Source: an uncultured Pelagibacteraceae bacterium (GTDB taxonomy: Bacteria > Pseudomonadota > Alphaproteobacteria > Pelagibacterales > Pelagibacteraceae). From it: a DNA stretch of 64,000 nt. This document shows positions 13,664 through 15,301 of this stretch, one piece after another. The notes under the pieces were generated by a model. It was not told where the DNA came from, did not search any database, and saw only the letters and a list, made by a program, of their open reading frames with translations. The DNA is taken from positions 35,533 to 99,532 of the forward strand of contig CACPEJ010000003.1 of the NCBI GenBank assembly GCA_902632935.1, written 5' to 3'. Every line of letters starts with the position of its first letter. Within the stretch, counting starts at the first letter, position 1. A program made the translations under genes and the position numbers.

Positions 13664-13739
13664 TGGTGGGCCCTCCAAGAATCGAACTTGGTCTTTTAGA
13701 TTTTCAGTCTAACGTACGCACCAGCTATACCAAAGGCCC
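13664..13739 (-). tRNA. tRNA-Phe (GAA)
   Basis: A 76-nt cloverleaf on the minus strand: acceptor GGGCCTT/AGGGCCC, D-stem GTAT/GTAC, anticodon stem TTAGA/TCTAA with loop CTGAAAA (anticodon GAA), T-arm CCAAG-TTCGATT-CTTGG, discriminator A and encoded CCA. It lies 13 bp downstream of infA and upstream of cspA on the same strand. Confidence 0.95.
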
Positions 13740-13752
13740 TTATTTTATCAAA

Positions 13753-14015
13753 CTATCCCCTGAAGATTATTCTTCCCTTAGTCAGATCATATGGGGTCAT
13801 TTCTACTGTCACATTGTCACCCTGTAACACTCTAATTCTATTTTTTCAGTCTATAAGACTAGTCCCCAACTAGTTAAAGTTGGGGACTAGCCCCGTAACT
13901 TTCCTGCAGTATGGGCGGTTACTGTATGCCCATTTTCTAATTGCACTCTAAACATAGCATTAGGTAATAAATCAATAACTTTACCCTTAAATTCTAATAA
14001 GTCTTGTTTTGACAA
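13753..14015 (-). CDS. infA: Translation initiation factor IF-1, interrupted by a hairpin insertion
   Basis: Two halves of a normal 71-residue IF-1 are present but do not form one ORF. The 5' half starts at a TTG (13 nt after AAGGAG) and reads [41 protein letters not shown], then Gly and a TAG at 13887-13889. The 3' half resumes at 13845 as [30 protein letters not shown] and ends at TAG 13753. Together they match the family end to end except for 47 extra bases after Arg41, in the GKMRKN loop that contacts the 30S A site. IF-1 is normally essential and single copy, and hisD ends 2 bp upstream as usual in alphaproteobacteria. Neither half shows decay beyond the insert. Recoding, RNA removal, a second copy elsewhere, or an assembly error are all open. 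Confidence 0.85.
13846..13892 (-). repeat. 47-nt hairpin element inside infA
   Basis: The extra sequence contains a perfect 13-bp inverted repeat (CTAGTCCCCAACT and its complement, 13859-13871 and 13878-13890) with a 6-nt loop. A second 5-bp stem follows (AGTCT-TAT-AGACT). Its GC content is well above the gene's. The length, 47, is not a multiple of three, and in the reading frame a TAG comes one codon after the junction while a TGA directly precedes the resuming AAA codon. There is no U-run after the stem in either direction, so it is not an intrinsic terminator. No target duplication or second copy was noticed in the window. Confidence 0.8.
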
Positions 14016-14017
14016 AT

Positions 14018-15301
14018 TTAGTTTCTCCTTATTCTTTTTTTTACAGATTGAGCATGTCCTGCTAACCCCTCGTAATTTGCAAGAGTTATAACTGATGGCC
14101 CAAGACTTTCAATACCCTTTTTTGATAAGTTTATGTAAGAAATTCTTTTATAAAATTCATTAACACTTATACCGCTAGAATATTTCGCAGAGCCATTTGT
14201 TGGCAATATATGATTTGATCCAACGTTATAATCTGTCATTGCCATAACAGCATATTTTCCTAAGCATATTGAACCAGAATTTTTAATTTTTGGTATAAAA
14301 GATTTGTAGTTTTTAACATTTAATTCCAAGTGTTCAGGTGCAATTTTATTTACGATACTAATAATTTTACTATCGTTTGCTACATACATTAAAATTCCAT
14401 TTCTCTTTAAACTTTTTTTTGCCACAGATTCTCTTGGAATACTTTTTAATTGTTTTGAAATTTCCATCTGGACTTTACTAATTAGTTTTTTGTCTTTTGA
14501 AATCAATATGCATTGTGCTTGAGGATCATGTTCTGCTTGACCGATTAAATCACTTGCAGCCCACTCAGGATTTGAGAATTTATCACAAACAATAGTTATT
14601 TCAGAAGGACCTGCCGTCATGCCTTCGATACCAACATCCCCAAAAACTTCTTTTTTTGCCGCTGCTACATATGAATTCCCGGGTCCAACTATTTTATCAA
14701 CTCTTTTAATTTTTTTAGTTCCATAAGAGACAGCTGCTATAGCAGATGGACCACCAATAGAGTAAATTTCTTTAATTTTACATTTTCTTGCTGCGTATAA
14801 AACAGCCGGATTTTGATTTCCCTTGAAACCTGGGTTTATCATTACAATTCTTTTAACTCCCGCAACAATTGCTGGTATAGCATTCATAAGCACACTTGAT
14901 GGATAAGATACAAGTGAACCTGGAACATAAATTGCAACAGACTCTAAAGGTAAATATTTATATTCAAGTTTATTTTTGAATTTATCTGTATACGAAATAT
15001 TCTTAAATTTTTGTAAGGAATGGAATTTATAAATTCGATTATAGGCTGTGTCGATTGCTTTCTTAACTTTAGGATTTAAAGACTTTATTAATTTATTAAT
15101 TTTTGTAGCACTAGGTATAATTGTAGTATTTCGATTAAATTTCCTTTCATATTTAATTAATGCTTTATCACCATTCTTTTTTACATCATTAATAATATTA
15201 GTTACAGAAACTTTGTCAGATTTTATACTTTTTCTCCTTTTAAAAAGTAAATAATCCAAATTTTTATCAAAATTCTTAGTTTTACTATTTAATATTTTCA
15301 T
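14018..15301 (-). CDS. hisD: Histidinol dehydrogenase
   Basis: The 427-aa protein matches HisD throughout: [20 protein letters not shown], the NAD-site region [34 protein letters not shown] with the zinc/catalytic His-Asp residues, IAPEHLEL and the glycine-rich end [13 protein letters not shown]. It performs the last two oxidations of histidine synthesis, histidinol to histidine, using zinc and NAD. It follows the DUF2948 gene by 2 bp, and its last codons contain the Shine-Dalgarno for infA. The remaining his genes except hisG/hisZ are outside the window. Confidence 0.96.

Follow-up and report, generated by a model that had tools for sequence, protein, structure and literature searches.

The infA gene in this 64,000-nucleotide stretch of Pelagibacteraceae DNA (the window) is split into two coding segments by a 47-nt insert carrying a long hairpin. 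Comparison with related genomes indicates that this insert most probably serves programmed translational bypassing and belongs to a dispersed family of hairpin elements of about 44-54 nt. In total, 27 such inserts were found. They occupy eight sites in five genes and come from at least 22 genomes, all within one Pelagibacteraceae genus. The first-pass annotation of the window had proposed, as its lead idea, bypassing of the kind known from T4 gene 60 and the yeast byp elements, and this is the reading that the sequence comparisons support best.

The interrupted infA gene

The infA gene occupies positions 14015-13753 of the minus strand, between hisD (14018-15301) and a tRNA-Phe gene (13664-13739). 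Its 5' segment (13893-14015) encodes IF-1 residues 1-41 from a TTG start and ends in ...HTAGKLR, the last codon being CGG (13895-13893, Arg41), with GGC TAG coming next. The non-coding insert (13846-13892) consists of a hairpin, GGCUAGUCCCCAACU-UUAACU-AGUUGGGGACUAGUC together with the 3' side of its base, which lies directly 3' of the take-off codon (13856-13892) and holds an in-frame UAG (13889-13887), followed by an AT-rich linker (13855-13849) and the landing triplet UGA (13848-13846), linker and triplet together spanning 13846-13855. The frame resumes 47 nt past CGG at AAA AAT AGA (KNR...), and the 3' segment (13753-13845) encodes residues 42-71 (13845-13756) up to the stop TAG (13755-13753). 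Both halves separately score as Pfam eIF-1a/IF-1, with E values of 9e-11 and 5e-11. The layout given in the first-pass annotation, infA split after residue 41 by a 47-nt insert with an in-frame stop, is thus borne out in its coordinates and in the Pfam matches of both halves; that the gene lies on the minus strand had not been stated there. The TTG start (14015) is also present in nearly all relatives.

The 13-bp stem and 6-nt loop described at the outset are exact in the sequence, and the stem lengthens to 15 bp through a G-C and a G.U pair at its base. Folding of the insert region as RNA gave -31.6 kcal/mol (z = -6.7 against shuffles), and the stem pattern occurs once in the 64-kb window and in none of 100 shuffles. 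A second small stem (GTC-TTATA-GAC), annotated at the same time, does exist in the window but has not been kept in relatives, and it is probably incidental since they lack it. A search of the window's own genome returned no copy of the infA element beyond the known one.

Distribution of the element family

Related SAR11 genomes and other host genes had been named as the place to look for the element, and the search yielded the 27 inserts mentioned above. With the joined protein as query, we found infA cut at the same codon as in the window in another genome of the genus, G053, in which the flanks have diverged and the hairpin is nearly identical. A pattern search of the 399 genomes of the genus retrieved G197, whose infA carries two inserts, the second nine codons on. 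When the pattern was run over 84,980 species genomes of bacteria and archaea, 12 stretches matched, nine of them on Pelagibacteraceae contigs and all nine within infA or thioredoxin coding sequence; one of these nine (L055) is very close to the window. The remaining three, in Nocardioides, Paenibacillus and Gordonia, were judged to be chance matches.

A covariance model of stem and sequence (R1), which matches the window at 13846-13898 (TTA CGG plus the insert) with 70.5 bits, was run against 397 genomes of the order in addition to the 399 of the genus. Among the 13 genera of the order covered, only the window's own carries elements. The sole other R1 match at the level of the class (G741) is a GC-rich repeat array and was set aside as chance; weak matches in L081, L082, L084 and L085 and a set of 28-nt matches resemble ordinary terminators or unrelated hairpins, and in the match L090 the reading frame is intact. 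No match to the hairpin patterns was obtained in 2.9 million viral contigs, and therefore there is no sign of a phage source.

The inserts fall after Arg41 of infA (six inserts, each in a different genome, and these genomes are for the most part strongly diverged) and after Gly50 of the same gene (five inserts); between FG and VRGIPT (five), RG and IPT (one) and at the active site between WC and GPC (one) of thioredoxin (trxA); between NIG and FDDE of exodeoxyribonuclease I (five; PF08411, with an NCBIfam exodeoxyribonuclease I assignment for which the fragment scores below cut-off); between RPPG and HHA of a histone-deacetylase-family gene (three; PF00850); and between VRG and NACVS of ribosomal protein S1 (rpsA; one, in the 97% complete genome G452). 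Genes interrupted in this way are likely to be called truncated or missing by annotation pipelines. No report of such elements in SAR11 was encountered in the open-access journal literature searched.

Two thioredoxin loci deserve separate mention. In L072 (1420-1900, genome G435), a single thioredoxin gene bears two inserts, one of which splits the CGPC active site, with TGT at take-off and TTT at landing, codons that do not match. In L103 (G637), the thioredoxin gene adjoins the exodeoxyribonuclease gene of L108 and looks unlike the trxA that other relatives have there, a possible gene replacement; its insert has GGG at take-off and AGA at landing.

Shared anatomy of the elements

Anatomy was compared over 24 distinct elements. 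The inserts measure 44-54 nt, and their lengths modulo 3 fall into classes of 13, 6 and 5 elements. Stop-codon readthrough is excluded by these lengths, since all frame classes are represented. Every insert lies as a non-coding gap between two coding segments, and at each of them the resume point restores the frame and the exact residues of intact homologues, none being lost or added. The take-off codon is NGG at seven of the eight sites and TGT at the eighth, and the hairpin begins 1-2 nt after it (a gap of 0-1 nt) in all 24 elements, with minimum free energies of -22 to -34 kcal/mol. Both sides have changed in five of 16 stem pairs, and the resulting covariation score was reached by none of 500 shuffles. 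In the exodeoxyribonuclease I gene of G654, site and hairpin are retained, while the stem consists largely of other sequence. The linker is AT-rich and places 5-14 nt ahead of the landing triplet; neither its sequence nor its length is conserved.

The first stop lies one codon past take-off in 14 of the 24 elements and later in seven, and two inserts have none. The A site at take-off is usually occupied by the sense codon GGC; a stop stands there only at the thioredoxin WC site (1/24). The in-frame stop is therefore not the essential part of the element, being later or absent in nine cases. At the Gly site of infA, GGG is the codon in only one of 30 intact relatives, and because these relatives so rarely use it, the third G of the take-off codon probably belongs to the element or is required by it. 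A loop of UUUAAY, set within C-UUUAAYUA-G, recurs in many elements, and so does an invariant G.U pair at the foot of the stem (GGCU/AGUC), patterns hinting at sequence-specific recognition beyond plain pairing. In some folds the upstream exon also paired with the linker over a longer stretch; this was rejected, as it is inconsistent across sites.

Match between landing triplet and P-site tRNA

Every linker triplet was scored against the anticodon of the tRNA reading the take-off codon, with anticodons taken from the near-complete genome G452 (Gly UCC and GCC; Arg UCU, UCG and ACG; Cys GCA); tRNA-Arg(UCG) and tRNA-Gly(UCC) were also identified in the genome from which the window comes. In 22 of the 24 linkers, no other triplet matches the anticodon as well as the one immediately preceding the resume codon; the exceptions are a tie in L056 and the active site of thioredoxin (TGT/TTT). 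The observed match total was reached in 0 of 20,000 random-triplet draws, a p-value that overstates independence because the elements are related; taking one value per site (nine groups) gave the same result. The landing codon is cognate to the tRNA of the take-off codon in 19 of 24 elements, most relatives having GGG/GGN or AGG/AGA. The five non-cognate pairs are CGG/UGA (the window), CGG/AGA (twice), GGG/AGA and UGU/UUU. The first-pass annotation had raised the objection that TGA does not match the window's take-off codon. This difficulty largely disappears once the tRNA is considered: tRNA-Arg(UCG), which reads CGG, pairs with UGA by G.U, G-C and A-U, with a single wobble pair, and this triplet tops all others in the linker.

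Selection, gene copy number and possible exchange

Among the interrupted infA genes (two near-identical genomes set aside), pS ranges from 0.54 to 0.94, near saturation; pN, by contrast, starts from 0 and does not exceed 0.18 in the first half or 0.17 in the second. Judged by these values, both halves are under strong purifying selection, and the second half could not have been kept unless it were translated in its own frame. When the window is set beside G053, the hairpin differs at one of 37 positions and the linker with the landing triplet at five of 10 (range 4-6). With far fewer changes than the linker, the hairpin itself, on this comparison, is selected or recently exchanged. A second, uninterrupted infA was named at the outset as what would count against the interpretation; none was found in the eight interrupted genomes searched, and the chance of having missed a real one in all eight, given their stated completeness values, is about 7e-6. 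The joined-protein search left 16 genomes of the genus with no infA match, which fits their incompleteness.

On the hisD tree, each of the two infA insertions needs at least four changes, among close relatives that do not have them. L066 and L067 have nearly identical interrupted infA genes, and their hisD sequences group with those of the uninterrupted L017 and L019; this disagreement suggests that whole interrupted alleles have been exchanged by recombination. A comparison of filled and empty sites (CAA GGG-insert-GGT GAT in L067, CAA GGT GAT in L019) points to the landing codon being the original codon of the host gene, in effect duplicated by the insertion. The inserts probably occupy highly conserved motifs of their host genes, much as homing elements do. 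Downstream of infA, the tRNA-Phe gene (13664-13739 in the window) has several very different sequences in the close relatives L012, L017, L050, L051, L060, L066 and L067, L066 and L067 being an example of a differing pair, as if the tRNA-Phe gene or an infA-tRNA block had been repeatedly exchanged.

Proposed bypassing and alternative explanations

From this evidence we infer that the insert is skipped during translation, by the following order of ribosomal steps. The ribosome would translate until NGG (in the window CGG, for Arg41) occupies the P site, at which point the very stable hairpin starting at the next nucleotide would fill the A site and stall it. The peptidyl-tRNA would then release its take-off codon, the ribosome would cross the hairpin and the 5-14 nt of AT-rich linker, and the same tRNA would re-pair with the landing triplet (UGA by tRNA-Arg(UCG) in the window, GGA at most Gly sites). 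Decoding would restart at the next codon and produce a single full-length IF-1. We think it likely that these are dispersed, probably mobile or horizontally exchanged hairpins in the chromosome of free-living bacteria, and that they are bypassed in essential genes (those for IF-1, S1 and thioredoxin) without a dedicated nascent peptide. The ribosome may be shunted past the still-folded hairpin and, once the P-site tRNA has paired again, land 5-14 nt beyond the base of the stem. Some observations speak against bypassing. The matched landing codon could be a relic of target-site duplication, the five non-cognate elements mentioned above lack a strict codon match, and the position of the in-frame stop is not constant. 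A common nascent-peptide signal is impossible across such different host proteins, and none is expected, since these proteins are unrelated.

The rival that deserves most attention is removal of the insert at the RNA level, with hairpin and linker forming a tiny intron whose ends are religated by an RtcB-independent enzyme pair. Joining as NGG^...^resume (or NG^...NG^A) would give the correct residue everywhere, also in the window with its non-identical landing codon, and the strong conservation of the hairpin would suit an intron. However, RtcB, the usual candidate for a bacterial RNA ligase, is absent (PF01139) from all 14 genomes considered, 13 of them element-bearing and one a complete genome of the genus, and the window has no match to an Rfam intron family; neither an intron core nor a known ligase was found in these searches. 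Excision also sits poorly with a linker of variable sequence and length, and leaves unexplained why the triplet before the resume codon tracks the identity of the P-site tRNA and why GG is kept at Gly sites amid a changing linker. An RNA intron offers no reason for the tRNA match except target-site duplication, the traces of which should decay. Because the landing triplet fits the P-site tRNA and RtcB is missing, we favor bypassing and regard excision as unlikely.

We consider it very unlikely that translation stops at TAG and re-initiates past the hairpin, giving two IF-1 peptides that assemble. The TAG close behind take-off, a hairpin that could favor re-initiation and an in-frame GTG at the sixth codon after the window's resume point would be in keeping with a split protein. 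Yet this GTG is GTA in G053 and GTC in G353, the elements share no start codon in the stretch from hairpin to resume point, conservation at the beginning of the second half is as strict as in the remainder, and two elements have no in-frame stop in the insert at all. The cuts, moreover, fall in the CGPC active site of thioredoxin, within the single domain of IF-1 and in the middle of S1. Even less probable is a decaying pseudogene, with a functional infA elsewhere or a dispensable IF-1. The window's genome is only 65% complete, which taken alone leaves room for a second infA, but the eight-genome search described above speaks against one, pN stays far below pS in both halves at near-saturated synonymous divergence, and there is a single kind of lesion throughout, always with frame-exact resumption; the initial view that this is not a decayed pseudogene is upheld. 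Least credible of all is an artefact of sequencing, amplification or assembly. Isolate names, where known, are of the AG-xxx kind, taken to denote single amplified cells, and hairpins are typical products of single-cell amplification chimeras, but the same element recurs at one and the same codon in genomes whose synonymous sites are close to saturated with changes, its stems covary, its linkers are specific to the site, and the contigs that carry it reach 369 kb.

Comparison with known systems

Rickettsia palindromic elements are short palindromic inserts in alphaproteobacterial protein genes that are kept in frame and translated as extra residues. The SAR11 inserts differ from them in occupying all three frame classes and mostly containing stops, and so they cannot be translated through.

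Efficient bypassing has been established so far in T4 gene 60 and in yeast mitochondria, and a 2016 review of recoding remarks that few cases are known (PMC5009743). If the interpretation proposed here is true, ordinary bacterial ribosomes can pass over some 50 nt with no special nascent peptide, on compact elements lodged in essential genes of a very abundant bacterial group. The elements would then provide a natural mutational series of stem, linker and codon variants for testing the mechanism, and would show how frame-breaking inserts persist in a streamlined genome.

In T4 gene 60, a 50-nt gap with a Gly take-off codon, a nearby stop and an A-site stem-loop is crossed to a matched GGA landing codon in another frame (PMC5009743, PMC11194080). 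The SAR11 elements resemble it in their gap of 44-54 nt, in having a hairpin at the A site and a stop close by, and in passing from one Gly codon to another; sliding in gene 60 stays processive up to 56 nt (PMC11194080), a distance that spans the SAR11 gaps. Gene 60, however, is a single gene of a phage; it needs a nascent peptide (KKYK) and has both a 5' stem-loop and a small stem-loop at take-off. The SAR11 elements share no nascent peptide, and their eight sites are spread over five bacterial core genes that are unrelated to one another. They take off from NGG instead of GGA, and their 15-bp stem, which begins immediately past take-off, is much stronger than the little stem-loop that gene 60 has in the A site.

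In the mitochondria of Magnusiomyces capitatus, the byp elements are numerous short inserts in core protein genes, some with imperfect landing matches (PMC5009743). As far as the published description allows the two to be likened, the SAR11 inserts are similarly short, scattered and frame-breaking, and some of their landing pairs are loose. Instead of 81 inserts in one yeast mitochondrial genome, however, there are one or a few per genome on a bacterial chromosome, and all have a long hairpin, whereas byp bypassing has been described as independent of mRNA context. By analogy, the SAR11 elements may work as the gene 60 and byp systems do.
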